Source of the DNA: Casimicrobium huifangae
Lineage (GTDB): Bacteria > Pseudomonadota > Gammaproteobacteria > Burkholderiales > Casimicrobiaceae
Assembly: GCF_009746125.1 (NCBI RefSeq)
Contig: NZ_CP041352.1
Coordinates: 3,704,436-3,768,435, forward strand
Length of the DNA stretch: 64,000 bases
Reading direction: 5' to 3'
Shown: positions 12,821-27,053 of the stretch, one piece after another
Layout: each line of letters begins with the position of its first letter
Position numbering within the stretch: the first letter of the stretch is position 1
The notes under the pieces: model-generated
Database searches by the model: none
What the model was told of the DNA's origin: nothing
The model's input: only the letters and a program-made list of their open reading frames with translations
Translations under genes and position numbers: made by a program

Positions 12821-13051
12821 GACGTCGCGCGGCTCTGCCGCGCCAGGACGACGCTCGCTGCGCTTGCCAGGACGACGGCCGCTGCGCGGCCTAGGACGCG
12901 AGGTTGGCAACGGGCACTGATCAGGCAAGCGAACGAGAATAGTTGAATGAAGAGAAATTTCTCCCCAGCATTGCGTCTTAGCGCGAAGCGCGTCGTCCTG
13001 GCAAGCGCAGCGAGCGCCGTCCTGGGTCGCGTAGCGACCGTCGTCCTGACC
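12811..13051. repeat. Facing GGACGACG repeat arrays around the lptE start
   Basis: Left array (12811-12904): about three units of CTAGGACGACG or CCAGGACGACG followed by a short variable hairpin. Right array (12973-13051): the same units in reverse orientation, GTCGTCCTGG. The two arrays can pair: 12847-12877 matches the reverse complement of 12991-13021 at 30 of 31 bases. The 113-base loop holds the lptE start at 12947, and the right array is coding sequence for the lptE signal peptide. Confidence 0.88.
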
Positions 13052-15717: not shown

Positions 15718-16518
15718 TCACGATGCATTGGCAAATTTCCACAACGCGCTCAACACTGCATCAGGCGCTTCGCTCGTCATGTTGTGCCCCGCATCGCGGA
15801 TCGTCTCGGCGCGTGCGTTGCGCAGCGCGGCGAGCGCGCCCTGCGCAGCCTTTGGTGGGGTCATCATGTCGTACTGACCGATCAGCACCAGCGCGGGCGC
15901 GTTCACGGCAGCAGCCGCGTCGAGGCCGCCGGTGTACGCCTTGCACGCGGCGAGATCGTTGTGCAGCACGCCCTTTGCCATGCGGCGCATCAGCGCGAGG
16001 CTGTTACCCGGCAGCCATGACCCCGGCACCTTCTGGTTGTTGCCCAGGTGTCCCGCCGGCGCGTAGGACCAGTCGACGATCATGCGCCGCGCCTTTTCTT
16101 CGTTGTTCAGCGCAGCGTCGAGCAGTGCATCCCCCACCGCCATCGGCACAGCAGTCCCCACCAGCGCGAGTCTCGCGACGAGGTCAGCACGCTTCGATGC
16201 CAGCTCCAGCGCGGTCAGCGAGCCCATGCTGTGGCCAATCACGACGGCATTCTTCACCGGCACGGCATCAAGGCAGGCTGCTACCCACGCGGCCAGTTCG
16301 GGCACGCTGGTACACAGCGGCCCTTCGCTCTGGCCGTGGTCCGGCAAGTCTAGGGCGAGCACGTTCCAGCCGTGAAACGCGAAATAGCGCGATTGCAGCG
16401 ACCACACGCTGTGATCGTTGGCAGCACCGTGGATGAAGACAACCGTTGGTTGCATGGCGACGAAGGCGCGAGTGCCGGTGTAGGCGTAGGCAGTGGCGCC
16501 GTTCACTTGAATTTTCAT
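15718..16518 (-). CDS. Alpha/beta hydrolase
   Basis: 266 residues. Oxyanion region VVFIHGAANDHSVW, nucleophile elbow GHSMGS with the catalytic serine, a late acidic residue in QYDMMTPP and a histidine in DAGHNMTS complete the triad. Family members hydrolyse esters, lactones or C-C bonds; the substrate cannot be told here. The ATG overlaps the metY stop as ATGA, so the two are translationally coupled and the hydrolase may act on a small metabolite linked to that pathway. No signal peptide. Confidence 0.85.
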   Translation of the reverse strand: MKIQVNGATAYAYTGTRAFVAMQPTVVFIHGAANDHSVWSLQSRYFAFHGWNVLALDLPDHGQSEGPLCTSVPELAAWVAACLDAVPVKNAVVIGHSMGSLTALELASKRADLVARLALVGTAVPMAVGDALLDAALNNEEKARRMIVDWSYAPAGHLGNNQKVPGSWLPGNSLALMRRMAKGVLHNDLAACKAYTGGLDAAAAVNAPALVLIGQYDMMTPPKAAQGALAALRNARAETIRDAGHNMTSEAPDAVLSALWKFANAS

Positions 16519-17807
16519 TTCGTCTTCTCCGCCGCCTTCAACGCCCGCGCCAGATCGTCGATCAGATCCTTGGCGTCCTCCAGCCCGATCGACAGGCGAA
16601 TAGTGCCCTCGGTGATGCCAGCCTTTGCCAGCGCATCGGCGCCCATGCGCGAGTGCGTGGTGCTGGCCGGGTGAATTACCAGCGACTTGGCGTCGCCGAC
16701 ATTGGCCAGATGCGAGAACAGGCGCAGGCTGTCGACGAAGACCTTGCCCTGCGCGCGCGTGCCCTTGAGGTCGAACGAGAACACGGCCGTCGTGCCCTTC
16801 GGGAAGTATTTCTTCGCGAGCTCGTGGTCGCGATGCTCCGGCAGTTCCGGGTGGTGAATGGCGCCGACGAAAGCGTGCGAGCGCAAAAACTCCACCACCT
16901 TGCGCGTGTTGGCAACGTGCCGCTCCATGCGCACTGGCAGCGTCTCGATGCCCTGCAAAATCTGCCAGGCACTCATCGGCGCCATGCAGGCACCGAAGTC
17001 GCGCAACCCTTCGCGACGGCAGCGCAGCAGAAAAGCGGCGGTGGAAGATTCCTCGGCGAACACCATGTCGTGAAAGCCGTGATACGGCGCGGCCAGCGTC
17101 GGGAAGTTCGCGCGGCCCTTGTCGGAGAGCCAGTCGAAGCGCCCGCTATCCACCAGCAGGCCACCGATCACCACGCCGTGCCCCTGCAGGAACTTGGTGG
17201 CGGAGTGAAACACGATGTCGGCACCATGCTCGAATGGCCGGATCAGATACGGTGTGGTCAGCGTCGAATCGAGCATCAGTGGCACGCCCACCTCATGCGC
17301 GACGGCAGCGACAGCCTCGATGTCGATCAGCAGATTGCCGGGATTGCCCAGCGTTTCGCCAAAGAACAGCCGCGTGTTCGGGCGCACTGCAGCGCGCCAG
17401 GCGTCTACATCCCACGGGTCCACGAACGTCGTCTCGATGCCGAAGCGCGGCAGCGTGTAGTCGAGCAGGTTGTGTGATCCGCCATAGAGAGCGCGGCTGG
17501 CAACGATGTGACTGCCGGCGCCCATCAGCGTGACTATCGCCAGATGCAGCGCCGCCTGGCCGGAGGCGACGGCGATGGCGCCAATGCCGCCCTCCAGCGC
17601 CGCGATGCGTTCCTCGAGCACGGCATTGGTCGGGTTCGAGAGCCGTGAGTACACGTGCCCCGCCCGCTCCATGTTGAAAAGCGCCGAGGCGTGATCCGAG
17701 TCCTCAAACACGAATGACGAGGTTTGATAGATCGGCGTCGCCCGCGCGCCGGTCGCCGGATCAGGCCGCGCACCGGCGTGAACGGAAAGAGTGTCTAGCT
17801 CAAACAT
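16515..17807 (-). CDS. metY: O-acetylhomoserine sulfhydrylase (PLP-dependent)
   Basis: 430 residues of the Cys/Met-metabolism PLP family. Start at ATG 17807 (MFELDTLSVHAG), the usual family opening, though the frame is open upstream. Diagnostic regions are YSRLSNPTNAVLEERIAALE, the cofactor-stacking ALYGGSHNLL, and the PLP lysine in HSATKFLQGHG. The length and the ETLGNPGN segment fit MetY better than the shorter MetZ. It makes homocysteine directly from O-acetylhomoserine and sulfide, the entry of inorganic sulfur into methionine. It is followed with a 4-base overlap by a hydrolase. Confidence 0.85.
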   Translation of the reverse strand: MFELDTLSVHAGARPDPATGARATPIYQTSSFVFEDSDHASALFNMERAGHVYSRLSNPTNAVLEERIAALEGGIGAIAVASGQAALHLAIVTLMGAGSHIVASRALYGGSHNLLDYTLPRFGIETTFVDPWDVDAWRAAVRPNTRLFFGETLGNPGNLLIDIEAVAAVAHEVGVPLMLDSTLTTPYLIRPFEHGADIVFHSATKFLQGHGVVIGGLLVDSGRFDWLSDKGRANFPTLAAPYHGFHDMVFAEESSTAAFLLRCRREGLRDFGACMAPMSAWQILQGIETLPVRMERHVANTRKVVEFLRSHAFVGAIHHPELPEHRDHELAKKYFPKGTTAVFSFDLKGTRAQGKVFVDSLRLFSHLANVGDAKSLVIHPASTTHSRMGADALAKAGITEGTIRLSIGLEDAKDLIDDLARALKAAEKTK

Positions 17808-18182
17808 GAACAGACGTTCGACATTGACGAACGCGACGGTTGCTATGGGTAGGAGTTTACGGCGTGCGACCGCCGCGCAGTCAGCGGCGGAACGGCGGAA
17901 CAAATCCGCGTCACGGCGCCGGAATTTTCAGTGGCATCGGTCCGGACGGATGCCGGACAAGAGCGACGCAGCTTCCAAAAGCGATAAAAATGCGTTGTAT
18001 TTTTACAACAGTAAACGGGCAACTTTATCGACCGAATGGCGTCTGCATGCGGGCTAGAAGCACAAAATGGAAAAAGTCGGAAATACGGAAAATACCCTCT
18101 GAGCCCTTGATGAATGCGGCTTCGGGCAAAAAGCCACTCGCTCGCCGGCAGTCAAAATTGCGTCCGAAAAGGGCGCAGCGAA
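17808..18182. other. Intergenic region without a recognisable gene
   Basis: 375 bases between metY and the HD-GYP gene. The right half is AT-rich for this genome. I see no convincing gene, RNA, or strong terminator; the promoter of metY should lie at its left end. Confidence 0.5.
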
Positions 18183-20051
18183 TCACAGCAATTCGCCCGG
18201 TTGCAGCGGCTCCATCTCGTTGAGCATTTCGTGCATCTTGTCACGCGCCTGGATGAAGGTCGAATCCTTCCCGGCCTCGGCCAGATAGTCATCGAATCCA
18301 TCGCCATGCGAACGGCGCAGATGGTTCACCAGCGAGAGGAAGGTGGTGACCATGCGCGGGTCGAAATGCGTGCCTGACGTGCGTTCGATTTCGAGCACCG
18401 CCTCCTCGTGCGTCCACGCATGCTTGTAGGCGCGGGCATGGGTGAGCGCGTCGTACACGTCCGCCAGCGCAGCGATGCGCGCCACCTCGGGGATGTTGTC
18501 GCCCTTGAGGCCGCGCGGATAGCCGCTGCCATCCCACTTTTCATGATGATGCAGGGCAATCTGCTCGGCTAGCCGGAACGCCGGATGCGAACACTGCTGC
18601 AGGATTTGCGCACCAATAGTGGTGTGCTTCTGCATCACGATAAATTCAGCTTCGGTTAAGCGTCCGGGTTTCATCAGCAAGCCATCGGGAATGCCGAGCT
18701 TGCCAATGTCATGCAGACGCGCAGCGAGCTCCACGTCCTGGCAGAACTTGTGCCCGAAGCCGAGTGCGTTCGCCAGCAGACCAGCCAGCTTGCCGACGCG
18801 ATAGGCATGGCGGCCAAAGGCGTCCTCGCGAAGTTCCGCTGCGACCGCGAGACGCTCCAGAGCATCGCGGTAAAGCTGCTCCGGGACTTCGATTTCTTCC
18901 TTCTGCGAGCCGGGCACCTTCTGGATCGCCATGATGACCGCGCGCACGTCGTCCTTGCCCGGCATGGGAGTCTGGACGCGTTCGCGAATGGCTTCGAGTT
19001 TTCCACGTACAGCGGTCACCTGAGACTTGCCAAGGAATTCGACAAGCTCCCCCAAATAAAGAAGGGCACCTGCATGGTCGTGCCCCTTTTCGTAGGCCTT
19101 CACAAGGAGTACCAGATTGTCACGATAGAGACCTGGATGACTTCTCGTGTGCTTAAGCATCTCGAGCAATTTCGCCACCGCAACCATGAGACTACCGGAG
19201 TACACCTCCACAGCGGCCTCTGCGAGTGCCCGATTCATTTGCAGTCGAGGTGATTTGAAAGCATCGGATAGGCTACGGATCATCGCAAGACGCTCGTCTA
19301 TTGTCGCGTCCTCGCGAAGGCCAATAGCACTCTTCAGCCAGGTCCCTTCGCCAATCACTCGATTCAAAACCCCATGGGCGTCTCTTGGCAGCCCCATTTT
19401 CTCGCACGCTTCGCGCGCAGACTCTGCTGCAAGCGAATAATGTTGAAGTGCCAATGCTGCGCTAGCCATGTTGGTCCTAGCAATCGCGATGAAGCTGGCA
19501 CAGCGTGCGTCGGCCTTGAAGCGCTTGATCAATCGCAGCGCGACAGAAATCGTCTCGCGATACAAGCCCATCGTGTACAGCGCTGCCGTCATGTTGCCAA
19601 ACGCCGCAGCCACGCCCATTTGGTCGCCTAGCTCGTGAGCAAGCACTGCTGCCTTGAGCGCGTATTCCACGCCCCTAGCAGGAATTCCGACATCGGTACT
19701 CATCAGCGCGTAAATGCTTGAAGCCCGACGCAACTCCGGTTTCAGTCCGTTATCAGTTGCGAGATCAAGTGCCCTTTCGACCATCGGAATCGCTTCGATC
19801 GATTTGCCCCTTGGAATGTGAGCAGCAGCGACGTCAAGCAATACGGAAATGCAATCTTGCAAGGGTTCAGGATGCTGACTGAACGCTATCAGACGCGCCG
19901 ACTGTACAAGCAGTTTGAAGTCCTCATCGTTTGGCGACTTCAACATGCCTGCAATGTCAACGCGCAACTGACGAACAAGGTCAGCCAAGCCGTCGCTATC
20001 GAATTCAGTCACGCAGGCGTCTAACAGCCCAATGAGTGCTTGTCGTTCCAT
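18183..20051 (-). CDS. TPR-repeat HD-GYP domain protein (probable cyclic-di-GMP phosphodiesterase)
   Basis: 622 residues. The N-terminal two thirds (about 30-370) are helical, TPR-like repeats (for example LERALD-type helices around GRSIEAIPMVERALDLA, seen here as KSIEAIPMVERALDLA), with no signal peptide or membrane segment. The C-terminal HD-GYP domain has every metal ligand expected: RHAYRVG, HDIGK at about 447-451, MQKHTTIG, ALHHHEKW and the GSGYP box near 508, then ALADVYDAL. It should hydrolyse cyclic-di-GMP in the cytoplasm. It is transcribed divergently from the peptide array, 102 bases away. In Gram-positive bacteria TPR proteins bind short exported peptides; that link here is a hypothesis only. 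Confidence 0.87.
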   Translation of the reverse strand: MERQALIGLLDACVTEFDSDGLADLVRQLRVDIAGMLKSPNDEDFKLLVQSARLIAFSQHPEPLQDCISVLLDVAAAHIPRGKSIEAIPMVERALDLATDNGLKPELRRASSIYALMSTDVGIPARGVEYALKAAVLAHELGDQMGVAAAFGNMTAALYTMGLYRETISVALRLIKRFKADARCASFIAIARTNMASAALALQHYSLAAESAREACEKMGLPRDAHGVLNRVIGEGTWLKSAIGLREDATIDERLAMIRSLSDAFKSPRLQMNRALAEAAVEVYSGSLMVAVAKLLEMLKHTRSHPGLYRDNLVLLVKAYEKGHDHAGALLYLGELVEFLGKSQVTAVRGKLEAIRERVQTPMPGKDDVRAVIMAIQKVPGSQKEEIEVPEQLYRDALERLAVAAELREDAFGRHAYRVGKLAGLLANALGFGHKFCQDVELAARLHDIGKLGIPDGLLMKPGRLTEAEFIVMQKHTTIGAQILQQCSHPAFRLAEQIALHHHEKWDGSGYPRGLKGDNIPEVARIAALADVYDALTHARAYKHAWTHEEAVLEIERTSGTHFDPRMVTTFLSLVNHLRRSHGDGFDDYLAEAGKDSTFIQARDKMHEMLNEMEPLQPGELL

Positions 20052-20153
20052 TTGTACTTACTCGAATGACGCTGTCATAATGAAACCACATTCTCCGCCA
20101 ATCACTGGCTAAGCACAACTAACCCACCAATACGCATCTTCGAAAGCACTTCC
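20052..20153 (+). promoter_or_regulatory. Divergent promoter region between the HD-GYP gene and the peptide array
   Basis: On the plus strand TTGTAC (20052-20057) and CATAAT (20076-20081) are 18 bases apart and resemble a sigma-70 promoter, giving a leader of about 65 bases before the first peptide gene. The -35 box touches the HD-GYP start codon, so the two genes could share control. Seen as sequence; activity is inferred. Confidence 0.5.
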
Positions 20154-20270
20154 ATGGACAAGCAAATCGATCTCGCCCAAGCCGACAACGAATCTTCCTT
20201 TCTGCGCGACCTGCTCGACAACGAAGTCATTCTCATCGGCGGCGGCGAAGCCGTCGGCACCACTTACTAA
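20154..20270 (+). CDS. Double-glycine leader peptide, copy 1 (core EAVGTTY)
   Basis: 38 residues: an acidic leader beginning MDKQIDLAQADNESS and ending LRDLLDNEVILIGGG, then EAVGTTY. Counting back from a cut after the third glycine puts Leu at -15 and -12, Glu at -8, Val at -7, Ile at -4 and Gly-Gly at -2/-1. This is exactly the pattern recognised by C39-peptidase exporters, and such an exporter gene lies at the end of the array. The predicted mature product is seven residues with no cysteine, far shorter than bacteriocins. Its ribosome site is weak (GAAAG). Function unknown; a signal peptide is my favoured guess. Confidence 0.85.
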   Translation: MDKQIDLAQADNESSFLRDLLDNEVILIGGGEAVGTTY

Positions 20271-20292
20271 GCATCAGAAAAGAGCCCCCATC

Positions 20293-20409
20293 ATGGACAA
20301 GCAAATCGATCTCGCCCAAGCCGACAACGAATCTTCCTTTCTGCGCGACCTGCTCGACAACGAAGTCATTCTCATCGGCGGCGGCGAAGCCGTCGGCACC
20401 ACTTACTAA
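20293..20409 (+). CDS. Double-glycine leader peptide, copy 2 (core EAVGTTY)
   Basis: Identical to copy 1 at nucleotide level. From this copy on, the upstream sequence is the repeated spacer, in which AGAG lies eight bases before the ATG and could serve as a moderate ribosome site. Confidence 0.85.
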   Translation: MDKQIDLAQADNESSFLRDLLDNEVILIGGGEAVGTTY

Positions 20410-20431
20410 GCATCAGAAAAGAGCCCCCATC

Positions 20432-20548
20432 ATGGACAAGCAAATCGATCTCGCCCAAGCCGACAACGAATCTTCCTTTCTGCGCGACCTGCTCGACAAC
20501 GAAGTCATTCTCATCGGCGGCGGCGAAGCCGTCGGCACCACTTACTAA
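20432..20548 (+). CDS. Double-glycine leader peptide, copy 3 (core EAVGTTY)
   Basis: Identical to copies 1 and 2, same 22-base spacer before it. Predicted cut after Gly-Gly-Gly, releasing a heptapeptide. Confidence 0.85.
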   Translation: MDKQIDLAQADNESSFLRDLLDNEVILIGGGEAVGTTY

Positions 20549-20570
20549 GCATCAGAAAAGAGCCCCCATC

Positions 20571-20687
20571 ATGGACAAGCAAATCGATCTCGCCCAAGCC
20601 GACAACGAATCTTCCTTTCTGCGCGACCTGCTCGACAACGAAGTCATTCTCATCGGCGGCGGCGAAGCCGTCGGCACCACTTACTAA
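20571..20687 (+). CDS. Double-glycine leader peptide, copy 4 (core EAVGTTY)
   Basis: Identical to the preceding copies. No base differences seen in coding sequence or spacer. Confidence 0.85.
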   Translation: MDKQIDLAQADNESSFLRDLLDNEVILIGGGEAVGTTY

Positions 20688-20709
20688 GCATCAGAAAAGA
20701 GCCCCCATC

Positions 20710-20826
20710 ATGGACAAGCAAATCGATCTCGCCCAAGCCGACAACGAATCTTCCTTTCTGCGCGACCTGCTCGACAACGAAGTCATTCTCATCGGCGGCG
20801 GCGAAGCCGTCGGCACCACTTACTAA
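20710..20826 (+). CDS. Double-glycine leader peptide, copy 5 (core EAVGTTY)
   Basis: Identical to the preceding copies. It is the last unit with the standard core and the last with the standard spacer after it. Confidence 0.85.
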   Translation: MDKQIDLAQADNESSFLRDLLDNEVILIGGGEAVGTTY

Positions 20827-20848
20827 GCATCAGAAAAGAGCCCCCATC

Positions 20849-20965
20849 ATGGACAAGCAAATCGATCTCGCCCAAGCCGACAACGAATCTTCCTTTCTGC
20901 GCGACCTGCTCGACAACGAAGTCATTCTCATCGGCGGCGGCGAAGCCGTCGGTTCAACCTACTAA
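20849..20965 (+). CDS. Double-glycine leader peptide, copy 6 (variant core EAVGSTY)
   Basis: The leader is identical to the other copies, but the last four sense codons read GGT-TCA-ACC-TAC instead of GGC-ACC-ACT-TAC. Only one residue changes, Thr to Ser, while three codons differ silently or conservatively, so the core sequence looks constrained. Its stop is 15 bases from the end of the convergent exporter gene, and no terminator hairpin is visible in that gap. Confidence 0.85.
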   Translation: MDKQIDLAQADNESSFLRDLLDNEVILIGGGEAVGSTY

Positions 20966-20980
20966 GTCGCTATAGAAAGG

Positions 20981-23044
20981 TCACAACCCCACCCGCTTCC
21001 CCGCCGTCGCCACCGTCGAGTCACGGTGCGCGATGATCAGCGAAGTGATGCCGAGGTTTCTTACCGACTGATTGACTGCCTGTTCGCGTTCGTTGTCGAG
21101 CGCGCTGGTGGCCTCGTCGAGCAACAGGAACTTCGGCTTGCGGTAAAGCGCCCTTGCCAGCAGCAACCGCTGGCGTTGCCCACCGGACAGCGCGCTGCCG
21201 GTATTGCCCACCAGTGAATCGACGCCCATCGGCATCCGGCTCACCTCGTCCCAGAGTGCTGCGGCCTGCAGCGATTCCGCCACCCGCGCCTCGTCGGCGT
21301 CCGGGTCGAACAGGCTGACGTTGTCGGTAATCGACCCGGCGAACACATAGTCCTCCTGCATCACCGCCGCGAGTTGCGTGCGCAGGGAGGTCGGGTCTAT
21401 GTCACGGATGTCGAGGCCGTCGATCAGCACTCGCCCCTCGGTCGCCGGCAGCAGACCAACCACGACCTTGGCTAGCGTCGTCTTGCCGGCGCCAGAGCGG
21501 CCAGTAAGCGCGACGCTATCGCCGGGGTCCACCGTAAAGCTGACGTTGCGAAAGATGAACGGGTCGTGCGGCCCATAGCGAAAGCCGAGGTTCTCGACCA
21601 CCCAGGTTGCCTTCGAGAGATCCGGTGCGACCGCCTGACCGCGCTGCTCGCCCGCCGCCAGCGCCACGTCCGCCACCCGTTCGGCATGCAGATCAAGCAG
21701 CCGGAACTCGGTGAATTTGTCGATCAGGTTAGACAAACGGCTCACGAACACCAGCTTGTAGGCGAAGAACGCGAGCAGCATGCCGACGCTGAAGCCACCC
21801 GCCATCACCTCGCGCGCGCCCAGCCAGACGATCAGCACGTTTTCCAGTCCGAACAAGGCGAAGCTCGCCGTCTTGTAGGTCAGCGTGAGCGTCTGCGCGC
21901 GGATGCTGGCGTTGAGCGTGTCCACCACGGCGTTCTGCCAGCGCGACAGGCGGTCGGCTTCGCCCATGTGCAGCTTGATCGCCTGAATGCCGCGCAGGCT
22001 CTCGATGAAGTGCGTCTGCTGCTGGGCGGCAAAGACGAGCTGTTCGTTGACCGCCTCGCGCATCGGACGGAACAGCGCCCAGCGCAGCAGCGCATAGAGC
22101 ACGGCGACCAGCAGCACCACAAACGTCAGGCGCAGGTTGTAGATCGCCATTACAGCGAACATGCTGATCGCAAGCACGCCGTCAATCAGCACCTCCAGCG
22201 AGCTGCCGGTGAGGGTGCGCTGGATAGCGTCCATCGAGGCGAAGCGTGACAGCAGATCACCTACGTGACGCTTCTCGAAGAACGCCAGCGGCAGCCGCAG
22301 CAGATGCGAGAAGAGTTGAGTGAGCACCTGCAACGAAAGGCTGTTGGTCAAGTGCAGCAACAGCCAGCCACGCAACGCACCAATCGCCGTCTGGATCAGC
22401 ACCAGCAAGGCAAAGCCGATCGCCAGCACTGTCATCAGATCACGGTCGGCCGACACCAGCACTTCGTCGACTGTCAGCTGGGTCAGCCACGGCATCGCCA
22501 GCGCGAACACCTCGAAGGCCAGCGCCAGCAATACAAGCCGCAGCAGGGCGCCACGGAACCCGCGGGCGCCGCCGACAATCGACCAGATCGAAAACTTCTC
22601 CACACTGCGCCGCTTCACGAACGACGGCGTCGGCGTCAGTTCGAGCGCAATGCCGGTGAAGTGTTTCGAGAAATCGGCGAGCGACTGCGTCCGTACGCCA
22701 CGGGCGGGATCATGCAGCTCGACGCGATCGGCATGTACGGCGGTGAGCACCACAAAGTGGTTGAAGTCAACGTGCAGAATCGCCGGCAGCCGCAACTGGC
22801 TCAGCGCCGGCAACTCCACGCGCAGGGGGCGAGCAGCAAGGTTCATGCTGTCGGCGATGTCGATCAGGCTCTTCAGCGTGGAGCCCTTCAGCGACACCGC
22901 GTGCTCGCGCCGCATGGTCTGCAGATCAGTCTCGATGCCATGATGACCGGCGATCATCGCGAGACAGGCGAGGCCGCACTCGGCTGCCTCCGTCTGCATG
23001 ATCAGCGGCACCCGGCGGCGGCGGAAGTTGAGGGTGGCGCTCAC
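20981..23044 (-). CDS. C39-peptidase ABC exporter (processes and exports double-glycine peptides)
   Basis: 687 residues from a GTG at 23044 that overlaps the adaptor stop as GTGA; another GTG at 23083 would add 13 residues but lacks a ribosome site. Domain order: C39 peptidase (about 10-140) with catalytic Cys23 in QTEAAECGLAC, His96 in FNHFVVL and Asp112 in LHDPARG; a six-helix exporter domain; an ATPase with Walker A GRSGAGKTT, signature LSGGQRQR and Walker B LLLDEATSALD. All catalytic parts are intact. Such proteins cut leaders after Gly-Gly and pump the core out. Its gene converges on the peptide array, which supplies obvious substrates. Confidence 0.93.
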   Translation of the reverse strand: MSATLNFRRRRVPLIMQTEAAECGLACLAMIAGHHGIETDLQTMRREHAVSLKGSTLKSLIDIADSMNLAARPLRVELPALSQLRLPAILHVDFNHFVVLTAVHADRVELHDPARGVRTQSLADFSKHFTGIALELTPTPSFVKRRSVEKFSIWSIVGGARGFRGALLRLVLLALAFEVFALAMPWLTQLTVDEVLVSADRDLMTVLAIGFALLVLIQTAIGALRGWLLLHLTNSLSLQVLTQLFSHLLRLPLAFFEKRHVGDLLSRFASMDAIQRTLTGSSLEVLIDGVLAISMFAVMAIYNLRLTFVVLLVAVLYALLRWALFRPMREAVNEQLVFAAQQQTHFIESLRGIQAIKLHMGEADRLSRWQNAVVDTLNASIRAQTLTLTYKTASFALFGLENVLIVWLGAREVMAGGFSVGMLLAFFAYKLVFVSRLSNLIDKFTEFRLLDLHAERVADVALAAGEQRGQAVAPDLSKATWVVENLGFRYGPHDPFIFRNVSFTVDPGDSVALTGRSGAGKTTLAKVVVGLLPATEGRVLIDGLDIRDIDPTSLRTQLAAVMQEDYVFAGSITDNVSLFDPDADEARVAESLQAAALWDEVSRMPMGVDSLVGNTGSALSGGQRQRLLLARALYRKPKFLLLDEATSALDNEREQAVNQSVRNLGITSLIIAHRDSTVATAGKRVGL

Positions 23045-24363
23045 AGACGCCCCCGCAGCCGCAGGATGGGTTCGATCAGCCACAGATAAAGCGGCCGTGA
23101 ATCAAGGGCGATGTCGGCCTGAGCCGCCAGCCCGCTGCGCAGCGGCCAGGCCTCGCCATAAGCCGCAATCGACGGCGACGCCAGTGACGCACGTACCCGG
23201 AAAACCGGCTCACGAATGGACGTTGGAAACCCCGTATCGCCCGGCGAGATGACGCTGCGGCCGACCTCGGTGACGGTCGCCGCGACATGGCCAAAGCGCT
23301 CCATCGGGAAGGCATCAATGGCCAGCCTGACACTCTGCCCCTCGCGCAGGAAGCCAGCCGATCGCGTTGGCACGTAAATGTCCGCCATCAGCATGCGCGG
23401 GCCAGTCTGCATCTGCACTAGCGAAGCCCCGGCAGCTACCGTCTGGCCGCTGAAGGCAATGACACGCTCGACGGTGCCATCGCTGGCGGCGGTGACTTCG
23501 TAAGCGCGCCGTGCCAGACTCTCGCGCGATGTCTGCGCCAGACTGGCTTCGTCGCGCGACAGCGTGGCGAGCTTGCCTTCCACCGTGGCGCGCAGCGTGG
23601 GCAACTCGGTGCGGGCGATAGCGAGGTCGCGTTCGATGCCGGCACGGGTGCGTTTGAGCGACTCGAGCTTGACCACCTGCTCGGCGAGATCGTCCTGTTT
23701 TTGCTGCACCTGAAGTTCGGGGGCAAATTTGTCTCGCGCCAGTTGCCGGTAGCGTTCAACCTGCCCCTTAAGTTGTGCCACCCGATCTTCCTGTGCGGCG
23801 ATTTCGCGGCCAAGCTGCGTGGTCTCTGCCGTGAGCGCGTTGATGCGAGCCGTAAGCTGGGTTTGTTGCGCGGTCAGCAGCGCTTGCGCCTGACGCCGTT
23901 CGCCGGCAATCGCGGCGCGACGCGCCTGGGCATCGCGCTCGCCCGCCGCAAACACCGCCTCGCCGCCCGCAGTACGCTCGGTTGATATGGTGGCAAGGCG
24001 CTGCCCGGCTTTGACGCTATCGCCCGCCTTGACATCGACGCTGACCAGGGTACCGGCCTCGGTGGCAGCTACCAGCACCGGATCATTGGCATAGGCCAGC
24101 ACCGCTGGCGCCCGAGCCTTGCGCGTGTACTGTGCGGTGAGCAGAAAGGCAACAAAGGCAATGGCGAGCAAGACACTGCACCAGGCCAGCCAGCGGGCAG
24201 CTCGTGGTGTAGCAACGACCAGCTCACCCCAGGCCCGCTCGCGCTGATGGGCGATGGCCTCCTTGCGATAGAGACCGGTGCGGATTTGGGTCGCGCGAGC
24301 AGAGTCCGCGCCACTGCTGGCGCGATCGCGTTGTGGTTCGCCCTCTCCCTCGGTGCCGGCCAC
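23041..24363 (-). CDS. HlyD-family periplasmic adaptor of the peptide exporter
   Basis: 440 residues. A cytoplasmic N-terminus (FRKEA-like LYRKEAIAHQRERAWG), one membrane helix at about 58-80, a biotinyl-lipoyl half (GTLVSVDVKAGDSVKAGQRL), a long coiled coil (about 140-290), the second lipoyl half (SDGTVERVIAFSGQTV) and a beta-barrel. This is the adaptor type that joins C39 exporters to an outer-membrane channel. No TolC-like gene is in the window, so a channel encoded elsewhere is likely. The GTG start shares one base with the stop of the altronate-dehydratase-like gene, and the exporter follows with a 4-base overlap. Confidence 0.9.
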   Translation of the reverse strand: MAGTEGEGEPQRDRASSGADSARATQIRTGLYRKEAIAHQRERAWGELVVATPRAARWLAWCSVLLAIAFVAFLLTAQYTRKARAPAVLAYANDPVLVAATEAGTLVSVDVKAGDSVKAGQRLATISTERTAGGEAVFAAGERDAQARRAAIAGERRQAQALLTAQQTQLTARINALTAETTQLGREIAAQEDRVAQLKGQVERYRQLARDKFAPELQVQQKQDDLAEQVVKLESLKRTRAGIERDLAIARTELPTLRATVEGKLATLSRDEASLAQTSRESLARRAYEVTAASDGTVERVIAFSGQTVAAGASLVQMQTGPRMLMADIYVPTRSAGFLREGQSVRLAIDAFPMERFGHVAATVTEVGRSVISPGDTGFPTSIREPVFRVRASLASPSIAAYGEAWPLRSGLAAQADIALDSRPLYLWLIEPILRLRGRL

Positions 24364-25895
24364 TACATCACCGCGCCGATATACCAGGGCACAAATTCAT
24401 CGGCACCGTAGCCCCAGCGTTCGCTCTTGCTCGCCTGGCCCGACGCCGTGGCGAGGATCATCTCGAAAATTTCGCGGCCCTTGTCTGTGATCGCCACACC
24501 GCTGTCGACAATGTCGCCACAGTTGATGTCGATATCTTCTTCCTGTCGCGTCCACAGCGCGTTGTTGGTGGCGAGTTTGAGCGAAGGGGACGGCTTGCAC
24601 CCATAGGCTGAGCCGCGACCGGTGGTGAAGCAAATGAGATTGGCGCCGCCTGCGACCTGGCCCGTCGCGCTGACCGGATCGTACCCCGGCGTGTCCATGT
24701 AGACGAAGCCATGTTTGTCTACAGCCTGGGCATATTCGTAGACATCCACCAGCGGCGTGGTGCCGCCCTTGGCGACCGCGCCCAGCGACTTTTCGAGGAT
24801 GGTGGTGAGTCCACCCGCCTTGTTGCCAGGGCTCGGGTTATTGTTCATTTCGCCCTTCAACCGCGCGGTGTATTCCTCCCACCACTTGATGCGGGCAACC
24901 AGCTTTTCGCCCACTTCGCGCGACAAAGCGCGGCGCGTCAGCAGATGCTCGGCGCCGTATATCTCTGGTGTTTCCGAGAGGATCGCCGTACCACCGTGCG
25001 CGACGAGCAGATCGACCGCCGCGCCCAGCGCCGGATTGGCGCTGATGCCGCTGTAGCCATCGCTGCCGCCACATTGCAGGCCGATGGTGATGTGCGAAGC
25101 GGGGACGGGTTCACGCTGCACCTTGTTGGCATCGATCAGCAGTTCGTTGACCAACTCGATACCCTTCGCCACTGCCTTGCCGGTGCCGCCGACGTCCTGC
25201 AGGTTGTAGCTGTGCAGCTTGGGGCCGTCGTCGAGCCCCTCTGCTGCCTTGAAGCTCGAAATCTGATTCGCCTCGCAGCCAAGGCCGATCACCAATGCCG
25301 AATGGAAGTTGGCGTGCCGGGCGTAACCCGCCAGCGTACGGCGCAACAGCGTCATGCCTTCACCATGCACATCCATGCCGCAGCCGACCGAATGCGTAAT
25401 CGCCACGACGCCATCTACATTCGGAAATGCATTCAGTGGCGAATTCGGTCCGGGCCGGAAGTGATCGGCGATCAGCTTGCACACCGTGGCCGAGCAGTTC
25501 ACCGTGGACAGCAAGCCGATGTAATTGCGTGTGGCCACGCGGCCATCGGCGCGCTTGATGCCCATGAAGGTTGCCTGCGGCGAAGCGGCCGCGACCGGGC
25601 GCACATCGACGCCAAAGGCGTAGTCGCGCTCGAAATCGCCCATCGCCAGATTGTTCACGTGCACATGCTCGCCCGCTGCGATTGGTTTGCTGGCAAAACC
25701 GATGATCTGGTTGTAGCGGCGCACCGGCGCACCCTGTGCGATGGCTTTGGTAGCCACCTTGTGTCCGGGTGGCACCATGCCGCGGACGGTGACACCCTCG
25801 CTACGCAGCTCGGTGCCGGAGATGAGTTGCACACGCGCAATGACGACGTCGTCGTTGGGGTGCAGGCGAATGGTGAGTTGGGCAGCAGACAGCAT
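24363..25895 (-). CDS. UxaA-family sugar-acid dehydratase (altronate dehydratase type)
   Basis: 510 residues from ATG 25895 (a TTG further upstream is less likely). An N-terminal SAF domain (about 1-90) is joined to the catalytic UxaA domain with HSVGCGMD, GLGCEANQ, LQCGGSDGYSG and TTGRGSAYGCKPSPSLKLA, including the conserved cysteines. Members dehydrate altronate, galactarate or related sugar acids, and some act on fuconate-like acids. The divergent SDR and FAH genes suggest a pathway through 2-keto-3-deoxy acids, but the sugar cannot be fixed. Its stop codon overlaps the adaptor start, which would place peptide export downstream of a catabolic promoter. Confidence 0.85.
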   Translation of the reverse strand: MLSAAQLTIRLHPNDDVVIARVQLISGTELRSEGVTVRGMVPPGHKVATKAIAQGAPVRRYNQIIGFASKPIAAGEHVHVNNLAMGDFERDYAFGVDVRPVAAASPQATFMGIKRADGRVATRNYIGLLSTVNCSATVCKLIADHFRPGPNSPLNAFPNVDGVVAITHSVGCGMDVHGEGMTLLRRTLAGYARHANFHSALVIGLGCEANQISSFKAAEGLDDGPKLHSYNLQDVGGTGKAVAKGIELVNELLIDANKVQREPVPASHITIGLQCGGSDGYSGISANPALGAAVDLLVAHGGTAILSETPEIYGAEHLLTRRALSREVGEKLVARIKWWEEYTARLKGEMNNNPSPGNKAGGLTTILEKSLGAVAKGGTTPLVDVYEYAQAVDKHGFVYMDTPGYDPVSATGQVAGGANLICFTTGRGSAYGCKPSPSLKLATNNALWTRQEEDIDINCGDIVDSGVAITDKGREIFEMILATASGQASKSERWGYGADEFVPWYIGAVM

Positions 25896-26074
25896 GATGG
25901 TTGGCAGGTCAGCGACGTCAAATAGACGTCTGACGTGAGACAAATACAGCCTCTAATGGTACGTCGTTCCTATAATGGTTTGAAGCACTTGTTTTGTCAT
26001 TCTCGCGACATTGCGACGGACGGCGAATACCGGCGGCTGCGACGCGCTGACACCAACAGAATCTCGGGAGGAAC
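25896..26074 (+). promoter_or_regulatory. Divergent promoter region of the sugar-acid genes
   Basis: A perfect TATAAT lies at 25971-25976 on the plus strand, although no good -35 box is seen. TAATGGT is repeated directly about 20 bases apart (near 25954 and 25974), and GACGTC repeats lie near 25916-25930. These are candidate regulator sites; no regulator gene is adjacent. Confidence 0.45.
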
Positions 26075-26815
26075 ATGGGCGATCGTTTGAAGGGGAAGGT
26101 GGCGCTGGTCACCGCCGCCGGACAAGGCATTGGGCGGGCGTCCGCCATCGCAATGGCAAAAGAAGGGGCGACCGTCTACGCCACCGATGTCAACCTCAAG
26201 CTGCTGGAATCACTGACCGGCCAGCCCGGCATCGTGACGCAAAAGCTCGATGTGCTGGACGACTTGCAGATCAAGTTCACCATTGAGGGCCTGCCGCCGC
26301 TCAATATCCTGTTCAACTGCGCCGGCTTCGTGCATCAGGGCACGATCATGGAGACGCACGACGAAGACTGGGATTTCTCGTTCAACCTCAATGTGCGCGC
26401 CCCGTTCAAGGTGATCCAGGCGGCGCTGCCGCGCATGGTGGCCAACGGCGGCGGCTCCATCATCAACATGGCAAGCGTCTGCGGCAGCATCAAGGGCCTG
26501 CCAAACCGCTTTGTCTATGGCACCACCAAGGCGGCAGTGATCGGCATGACCAAGAGCGTGGCGGCGGACTACGTCAAAGGCGGCATCCGCTGCAACGCTG
26601 TCTGCCCAGGCACCGTGGATACGCCATCGCTACACGACCGTATGGCAGCGCTCGGCGACATCGACGAGGCACGCAAGATGTTTGTGTCCCGGCAGCCGAT
26701 GGGTCGTCTGGCGAAGGCGGAAGAGATCGCCCCGCTGGTCGTCTTCCTCGCGTCCGACGAATCGGCCTTCGCGACAGGCAATGCGTACATGATTGACGGC
26801 GGAATTACGATTTGA
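26075..26815 (+). CDS. Short-chain dehydrogenase, 2-keto-3-deoxy-sugar-acid type
   Basis: 246 residues of the SDR family. The NAD-binding motif appears as TAAGQGIGR, the structural motif as FNCAGF, and the catalytic set is the Ser in NMASVCGS with YGTTK. The Asp in ATDVN favours NAD over NADP. With the FAH hydrolase downstream this resembles the pair 2-keto-3-deoxy-L-fuconate dehydrogenase and 2,4-diketo-3-deoxy-L-fuconate hydrolase of non-phosphorylating L-fucose breakdown. The assignment rests on resemblance and context. Start ATG 26075 follows GGGAGGAAC, a strong ribosome site. Confidence 0.82.
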   Translation: MGDRLKGKVALVTAAGQGIGRASAIAMAKEGATVYATDVNLKLLESLTGQPGIVTQKLDVLDDLQIKFTIEGLPPLNILFNCAGFVHQGTIMETHDEDWDFSFNLNVRAPFKVIQAALPRMVANGGGSIINMASVCGSIKGLPNRFVYGTTKAAVIGMTKSVAADYVKGGIRCNAVCPGTVDTPSLHDRMAALGDIDEARKMFVSRQPMGRLAKAEEIAPLVVFLASDESAFATGNAYMIDGGITI

Positions 26816-26827
26816 CTGCGTCAAATC

Positions 26828-27053
26828 GAGGACGACGCGCCTGCGGCGCTAGGACGACGGTCTCGCTTCGCTTGACCTAGGACGAATGACGCAAAGGTTT
26901 GCGACGTTTTTTGTTTGAAATTGAATCACCTGATGGCAGCGGTTCACTTAGTTGTTTGTCCGGTTACAGGTCCCGTCCTAGACCCGCGCAGCGAGGTCGT
27001 CGTCCTAGGCCGCGAAGCTGGCCGTCGTCTTAGCGCCGCAAGGCGAGTCGTCC
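26828..27053. repeat. Facing GGACGACG repeat arrays upstream of the FAH hydrolase
   Basis: Left array (26828-26884) in the orientation CTAGGACGACG, right array (26974-27053) in the orientation GTCGTCCTAG, with about 90 bases between. Variable short hairpins separate the conserved boxes, as at lptE. The arrays are imperfect reverse complements and could form one long stem ending 16 bases before the next start codon. Confidence 0.85.

Follow-up and report, generated by a model that had tools for sequence, protein, structure and literature searches.

Four described systems come closest to a gene cassette of Casimicrobium huifangae (Burkholderiales), which lies in a stretch of 64,000 nucleotides (NZ_CP041352.1, positions 3,704,436 to 3,768,435; hereafter the window) and comprises six tandem genes for double-glycine peptides, a divergent gene for a TPR-HD-GYP protein, and genes for a C39 peptidase ABC exporter and an HlyD-type adaptor. 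RRNPP systems (Rap, Rgg, NprR, PlcR, and PrgX) employ mature peptides that are short, as are those considered here; their propeptides are also exported by Sec, and their outputs are helix-turn-helix domains or a Spo0F phosphatase. The double-glycine pheromones of streptococci have longer cores, from about 17 residues upwards, and membrane histidine kinases serve as their sensors. In quorum sensing by diffusible signal factor (DSF), a membrane kinase detects a fatty acid signal, and the HD-GYP protein RpfG contains a receiver domain. Finally, double-glycine peptides and cognate C39 transporters of Gram-negative bacteria were reportedly predicted by Dirix et al. in 2004.

The cassette shares some features with each of these systems and departs from each in others. 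In the text of a survey that covered Firmicutes and viruses, Gram-negative quorum sensing is attributed mostly to enzyme-made small molecules, peptide signals are described for Firmicutes, and the RRNPP propeptide gene adjoins the gene for a cytosolic TPR receptor; its main text contains neither "HD-GYP" nor "double-glycine" (PMC10075063). As in RRNPP systems, the peptide genes here stand beside a gene for a TPR-type protein, the putative receptor, and Rap chains (RapJ, 4gyo, E 1e-8; RapF, 4i9c, E 1.7e-7) occur among the many generic TPR proteins matched by the receptor profile in the PDB. Unlike them, the cassette belongs to a Gram-negative host of the Burkholderiales, arranges its peptide genes in tandem arrays, ends its putative receptor in an HD-GYP domain (in the window protein, only a TPR-like region and HD-GYP were found), and places a predicted double-glycine leader beside C39/HlyD genes, whereas PptAB export is described for RRNPP propeptides (PMC7018657). 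Since the two defining features tested (output domain and predicted export route) differ and the host lies outside the Firmicutes, the cassette is best seen as an independent system that works like RRNPP but is not a member of it. With the streptococcal competence and Blp pheromones and their peptidase-containing ABC transporters (PCATs; ComAB/BlpAB), for which the same source describes a double-glycine leader with hydrophobic residues at -4, -7, -12, and -15, a C39 ABC exporter, and a signal function (PMC7018657), it would share all three traits, but its cores have 6-9 residues and its partner is a putatively cytosolic TPR-HD-GYP protein. As with RpfG, a cell-cell signal would be coupled to an HD-GYP phosphodiesterase of cyclic di-GMP (c-di-GMP), although the signal here would be a genetically encoded peptide and the sensor a TPR domain. 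The idea of Gram-negative double-glycine peptides with C39 transporters as possible signals agrees, by title, with that of Dirix et al. (2004; cited in PMC3262810). Among the matches listed in the open-access literature, judged by title or start of abstract, no description of a peptide/TPR-HD-GYP pairing appeared; this agrees with the initial annotation, made from the sequence alone, that no such system had been described, and leaves absence unproven. The cassette probably represents an undescribed family of Gram-negative quorum sensing systems, independent of RRNPP, in which pheromones of 6-9 residues with C39 type I export and TPR-HD-GYP receptors have species-specific cores that diverge like those of Bacillus and Streptococcus pheromones.

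We propose, with a probability of roughly 0.7, that the receptor, array, C39 exporter, and HlyD adaptor form a peptide signalling system in which an exported signal of 6-9 residues is re-imported, sensed by a TPR domain, and turned into a c-di-GMP output. What the genomes establish is the gene content and motifs of the cassette, the recurrent linkage of peptide, TPR-HD-GYP, and C39-HlyD genes, and selection on the core. The 38-residue precursor would be recognized through its double-glycine leader by the C39 exporter, whose C39 domain would cut after GGG to release the heptapeptide EAVGTTY, and the ABC/HlyD type I exporter would carry the peptide out with a TolC-like channel. Re-uptake would probably proceed via an Opp/Dpp-type importer, after which the imported heptapeptide may bind the TPR domain of the cytosolic protein encoded divergently from the array and alter the c-di-GMP phosphodiesterase activity of its HD-GYP domain; tandem copies would raise the signal dose. 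We infer cleavage, export, import, binding, and enzymatic output from sequence: the first steps belong to well-known families, while uptake and binding are conjectural. Because most species own a distinct core, the signal would be self-specific. If correct, this would join peptide pheromones, type I export, and c-di-GMP signalling in one system, and some thirty sequenced peptide-receptor pairs would open specificity, import across two membranes, and output to tests with synthetic peptides.

The array (20154-20965, plus strand) is confirmed as real. It consists of six tandem open reading frames of 38 codons each with a period of 139 (Tandem Repeats Finder: period 139, 5.9 copies, 99% matches, score 1600), bearing out the 139-bp unit of 38 residues read initially. 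The six identical genes of that reading are, more exactly, five identical copies and one near-copy: the sixth has three changed core codons (GGC/GGT, ACC/TCA, and ACT/ACC), of which only one alters a residue, conservatively, from T to S. The seven-residue core was correctly read (EAVGTTY five times, EAVGSTY once) and is kept in its seven-residue form in the genus. All leaders of the array end in LRDLLDNEVILIGGG and, provided that the cut falls after the third glycine of IGGG, present L-15, L-12, E-8, V-7, I-4, G-2, and G-1, so that the C39-type pattern holds at every position named; a cut after the second glycine would move the leader register by one. I-4, V-7, L-12, L-15, and the double glycine occur in all six copies, similar leaders occur in relatives, and -4, -7, -12, and -15 are given as the leader residues bound by C39 peptidases (PMC7018657). 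Within the single-contig 4.47-Mb genome, the window peptide matches (E <= 10) the six array copies and nothing elsewhere, and copy 1 was assigned to no family of Pfam, NCBIfam, or PHROGs. Scans of 19900-21200 for sigma-70 promoters and terminators found none. The lack of a sigma-70-like promoter, together with the DNA identity of five units, might suggest untranslated reading frames in a repeat that functions as DNA or RNA, an explanation to which we give next to no credence: core differences in divergent arrays are biased towards synonymous changes, relatives keep the leader motif despite diverged DNA, and an Rfam scan of 16000-27000 returned no match at the gathering score.

The putative receptor gene and the array are divergent and separated by 102 bp. 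In the encoded protein, an N-terminal TPR-type domain (residues about 1-390) precedes the C-terminal HD-GYP domain, in which the motifs HDIGK and HHEKWDGSGYP are intact (P0003; sought as HDxGK and HHExxDGxGYP). The N-terminal domain is predicted to be a TPR domain from the family profile, TPR_12 being matched in 18 of 23 aligned members. No 19-residue stretch reaches a mean hydropathy of 1.6, i.e., none is membrane-like, and the protein looks cytosolic. This partner of the peptides, like the conserved cassette as a whole, had gone unseen in the initial annotation. Relative to the window protein, 12 relatives are 47-76% identical in the TPR half and 70-93% in the HD-GYP half; the TPR half evolves faster.

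The exporter gene is convergent with the array and lies 15 bp past its last copy; the link between peptides and a C39 exporter that the initial annotation had drawn is strengthened by its presence there and its conservation in relatives. The first in-frame start is a GTG at 23083, and distant relatives align mostly from residue 22-23; the true start may lie further in. An N-terminal C39 domain with a Cys in QTEAAECGLACLAM, which we take to be the catalytic one, is followed by ABC membrane and ATPase domains, the layout of a PCAT, and among the closest chains of known structure are a bacteriocin-type PCAT, HlyB, and ComA. The adaptor matches NCBIfam type_I_hlyD at E 6.6e-31, below the curated cut-off. 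Bacteriocin export is stated to be the commonest function of C39 exporters in the same source (PMC7018657), and the cores vary between species, both of which would suit very short bacteriocins or microcins. This seems very improbable to us, as the gaps of 15 bp (array-exporter) and 102 bp (array-receptor) leave no room for an immunity gene, and the cores have 6-9 residues, are near-identical in tandem, and are linked to a TPR-HD-GYP gene; class II microcins have cores of tens of residues and a linked immunity gene, and the core here has seven residues.

Within the family, the peptide alignment was searched against 64 genomes, 17 of the genus and 47 others. Peptides occur in 15 of the 17 genus genomes (with the weakest matches at E 3.5e-5 in G006 and E 8.5e-5 in G013), and C39 genes were found in the same 15; none of the 47 others gave a convincing match (best E 0.16). 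A long TPR-HD-GYP match was obtained in 13 of the 17, that of G003 being truncated where its contig stops; in G014 the match is a C-terminal fragment at the edge of a contig, and G007, whose array lies at a contig end, has no match. The reduced genomes G008 and G016 (2.5-2.6 Mb) match neither peptide, C39, nor long receptor. Because the region is largely syntenic in the genus, co-occurrence there is not by itself proof of a functional link. The genus arrays have leaders of one kind and differing cores: EAASSLY, DTIVGLY, ESLTNTH/ESLTNCH, EVVILGI, EISGNFR, EFSGLLN, EIAVVGS, EGLFNFQ, DVITSGY, DVSLGLY, DVIVGLY, ETSLSSY/EVSLSAY, EAAQMYG, and DVVQMGG. All that could be read have seven residues; that of G013 is hidden by runs of N. 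One genome, G005, holds two arrays, with cores DTIVGLY (L039, G005:C296) and ESLTNCH/ESLTNTH (L040/L079, G005:C546); both adjoin a C39 gene or its end, representing either two systems or a mixed bin.

The linkage recurs outside the genus. In the order search (A2; up to four candidates scored per genome), the TPR profile matched 16 of 399 genomes, 12 of them outside the genus, and it matched 24 of the 28 genomes of one family, f23. Twelve complete cassettes were found in two other families, 11 in f23 and one in f20 (loci L173-L178 and L304-L309), each with HlyD, a C39 ABC exporter, one to five double-glycine peptide genes, and one or two TPR-HD-GYP genes. In all 12, the peptide genes and a TPR-HD-GYP gene point away from each other, and 10 share the gene order of the window, the exporter lying on the receptor's far side in L175 and L178. 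The C39 ABC proteins are 47.7-51.2% identical to that of the window, and the TPR halves of the six cassettes measured are 16-23% identical. Their flanks contain no counterparts of the genes that adjoin the cassette in the window, although an ABC ATPase of L175 (32% identical) and three L176 genes match other parts of the window; mere synteny as the cause of adjacency was therefore rejected, the distant cassettes lying in other chromosomal surroundings. In total, C39 and HlyD are present at 14 of the 17 distant peptide-receptor loci examined, the other three being two extra G440 loci and G056. Less certain are the cassettes of G336 (receptor cut) and G174 (double glycine plus nine residues). 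The distant cores include CGDVIWG/GGDIHWG/GGDIVWG, GGDVFVG/HGDVHVG, QAVMVFL, SGDVIF/AGDVIF, CGEVIMA, DVTVVIA/DVTVVIG, IGDVVFA, IGDTII/IGNTII, SGDVAFG, CGEVVFY, GGMVDLG, and SAAVCF, mostly of seven and six residues, with single genes of eight (SLAIIEIY), nine (G174), and ten (one G307 copy). At unrelated loci, three paralogous or distant TPR-HD-GYP genes stand divergent from a GGG peptide gene whose core has exactly seven residues, namely TGHGSGV in G010, EVVIGTK in G006, and VGDASLC in G056 (another genus); a fourth such receptor, in G003 (L122), is truncated at the edge of its contig. A class-wide TPR profile search (A3; E <= 1e-15, at most five first-look candidates scored per genome) matched only the window's own genome among 369, so that, at this sensitivity, nothing supports a reach beyond the order.

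The peptide motif is rare by chance. A strict form (E/D/Q/N, hydrophobic, x, x, hydrophobic, GGG, 4-10 residues, stop) gave no match in 1,069,578 bp of 75 loci fetched for an HD-GYP match (L194-L268) and 39 matches (37 distinct genes, as L040 and L079 overlap), one from another genus (L123), in 435,448 bp from cassette and paralogue loci; as most of this second set had been selected through peptide matches, the control shows low background rather than unbiased enrichment. Peptides beside the receptors of G827, G826, G336, and G174 were found by a looser pattern that demands no E/D/Q/N at -8. As this pattern has a background (36 in the same 1,069,578 bp, plus three unlike leaders at L284 and L292), these four rest also on position and leader.

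Selection within the arrays sets the core apart from the leader. Codons were compared in all copy pairs within 19 arrays, with the last 20 codons as the leader; not counted were G819's array of two copies, the G307 copy with the long core, and copies truncated at contig ends. Same, synonymous, and nonsynonymous codons numbered 335/111/41 in the core and 868/233/307 in the leader, corresponding to nonsynonymous:synonymous ratios of 0.37 and 1.32; these counts run over copy pairs, which do not represent independent events, and carry no scaling to sites. For the three QAVMVFL copies of G440, the core has 13 synonymous and no nonsynonymous differences, and the leaders have 27 nonsynonymous ones (sum of three pairs). 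Identity within the f23 and f20 arrays (29 pairs) is 0.58 for the leader (-16 to -4) and 0.83 for the core; between the 15 genus arrays, it is 0.62 for the leader (-16 to -1; 0.54 without glycines) and 0.20 for the core. The core is most likely the product, because it is the same inside a genome and different between species, and this core/leader pattern is, to judge from sequence, that of a species-specific pheromone.

The initial annotation had expected a signal or an abundant structural peptide. A signal is favoured over a structural peptide, because independent loci link a TPR-HD-GYP gene with the peptides and because cores that differ from species to species vary little within arrays. Secreted matrix or surface peptides, serving as public goods or structural elements while the HD-GYP protein merely regulates how much of them is made through c-di-GMP, would draw on the dosage that tandem copies provide, and c-di-GMP enzymes often control secreted matrix. 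Nonetheless, 6-9 residues are short for a structural role, the cores are nearly wholly different between species, and the gene is single-copy in G002, G009, the first locus of G006, G392, G820, G817, G826, and G827, making this explanation distinctly unlikely.

Several observations weigh against the proposed signalling system. In the window array, the leaders do not differ and every difference falls in the last core; the selection signal is thus carried by the relatives, and the pairwise, unscaled codon counts add a caution of their own. Core distance correlates with TPR distance (Mantel r 0.36, p 0.007, 12 genomes), but given HD-GYP distance the correlation is not significant (partial r 0.20, p 0.07, 12 genomes), and co-variation of core and receptor beyond phylogeny is only suggestive. 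The window's own TPR region alone has no Pfam match, the second-locus receptor of G006 has a degenerate HD motif, and core lengths other than seven (6, 8, 9, and 10) exist. Among the 24 best f23 TPR-HD-GYP loci, the 12 best-scoring adjoin a double-glycine peptide (three via the looser pattern only) and one is cut by a contig end, but the 11 lower-scoring have no leader-like double-glycine peptide within approximately 1.5 kb; six of these 11 carry HDIGL or HDIGT, and three lack an HDxG motif of the kind sought. No C39 gene lies in the 20 kb surrounding each of the receptor-peptide loci of G010, G006 (second loci), and G056, and the whole of G056, an 85%-complete genome, yields no C39 match at E <= 1e-8. 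Arrays in relatives without any C39 exporter had been named initially as evidence against the idea; G056 alone, with one peptide gene and a receptor, touches on this.

A dedicated peptide importer was likewise not identified among the SBP_bac_5 oligopeptide-binding proteins, of which the window's genome (G000) has nine and the system-less G008 and G016 five each. This gap, the cytosolic look of the receptor, and the adjacency of divergent peptide and receptor genes would also fit a TPR-HD-GYP protein that senses unexported precursor or intracellular free cores and so reports the state of export rather than the presence of neighbours. We regard this as unlikely: a sensor of precursor should constrain the leader, whereas selection in divergent arrays keeps the core, and C39/HlyD genes stand beside 14 of the 17 distant peptide-receptor loci. 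The exported and re-imported signal thus remains our preferred reading. The features of the locus are collected in Table 1.

Table 1. Features of the peptide cassette, in window positions.
Feature	Position	Strand	Remarks
TPR-HD-GYP protein, 622 aa, proposed receptor, divergent from array	18183..20051	-	Pfam HD_5, E 2.8e-36
Palindrome ATGACnnnGTCATA, possible operator	20066..20079	.	in 102-bp divergent intergenic region
Peptide gene copy 1	20154..20270	+	38 aa, core EAVGTTY
Peptide gene copy 2	20293..20409	+	core EAVGTTY
Peptide gene copy 3	20432..20548	+	core EAVGTTY
Peptide gene copy 4	20571..20687	+	core EAVGTTY
Peptide gene copy 5	20710..20826	+	core EAVGTTY
Peptide gene copy 6	20849..20965	+	core EAVGSTY
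C39 peptidase ABC exporter	20981..23083	-	Pfam Peptidase_C39 (PF03412), ABC_membrane (PF00664), and ABC_tran (PF00005) above cut-off
HlyD-type periplasmic adaptor	23041..24363	-	Pfam HlyD_3, E 1.7e-14

The palindrome ATGACnnnGTCATA is a possible operator, judging from its sequence and position. Of nine aligned divergent promoter regions of the genus, five hold it exactly and four in degenerate form; it was not seen at the distant cassettes scanned. The genome has five exact copies, versus none of a reversed control. Genes close to the other four (G000:C1:1082635, 1824552, 1998073, and 4219492) encode a protein with a beta-lactamase fold, one resembling glucose/sorbosone dehydrogenases, a DUF1800 protein, and a periplasmic binding protein; some of these products look like exported proteins, a hint that the sites may belong to a small shared regulon.

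A galactarate dehydratase gene (24363-25943) was considered as part of the system and rejected, since neither the loci of G002 and G009 nor any of the 12 distant cassettes contain it. A tree of exporters from 24 of 30 loci has two clades, one of which encloses a non-cassette row (G248), and does not support a single origin of the cassette exporters. In G248, a cassette-clade HlyD and C39 ABC pair (L310, G248:C37) has neither receptor nor peptide within 15 kb, and a receptor-like gene and peptide lie on another contig (L183); the cassette may be split. The window's genome encodes a second C39 exporter (G000:C1:416292, L125), 46% identical to that of the cassette, with no recognizable double-glycine peptide gene in the 20 kb fetched.

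Further receptor variants were noted in f23 and elsewhere. The TPR-HD-GYP relatives of L282-L284 and L286-L288, with HDIGL or HDIGT in place of HDIGK and no adjacent double-glycine peptide, are possibly non-enzymatic receptors or solos. Convergent GGG peptide genes lie approximately 1-1.2 kb past the receptor in two of the 11 genomes with lower-scoring loci, G131 (L181, 10614-10787, YGDSPCI) and G248 (L183, 9337-9489, EIGPYW), a possible looser form of the peptide-receptor pairing. A second TPR-HD-GYP gene accompanies the first in L173, L174, L177, L178, L304, L305, and L306, in tandem in six of the seven and beyond the peptide array in L178; such doubled genes would provide two receptors for one peptide pool. 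Locus L187 (G440:C5, 6602-7633) encodes a 343-aa protein with the TPR part of the receptor family only and no HD-GYP. In a Burkholderiaceae bin, L193 (JACCYC010000312.1) has a receptor and two double-glycine peptide genes with the cores GVPSFE (after GGG) and SIVCTFG (after AGG). Apart from the array, the window contains imperfect short tandem repeats of 24-26 bp at 12842-13048 and 26974-27052.

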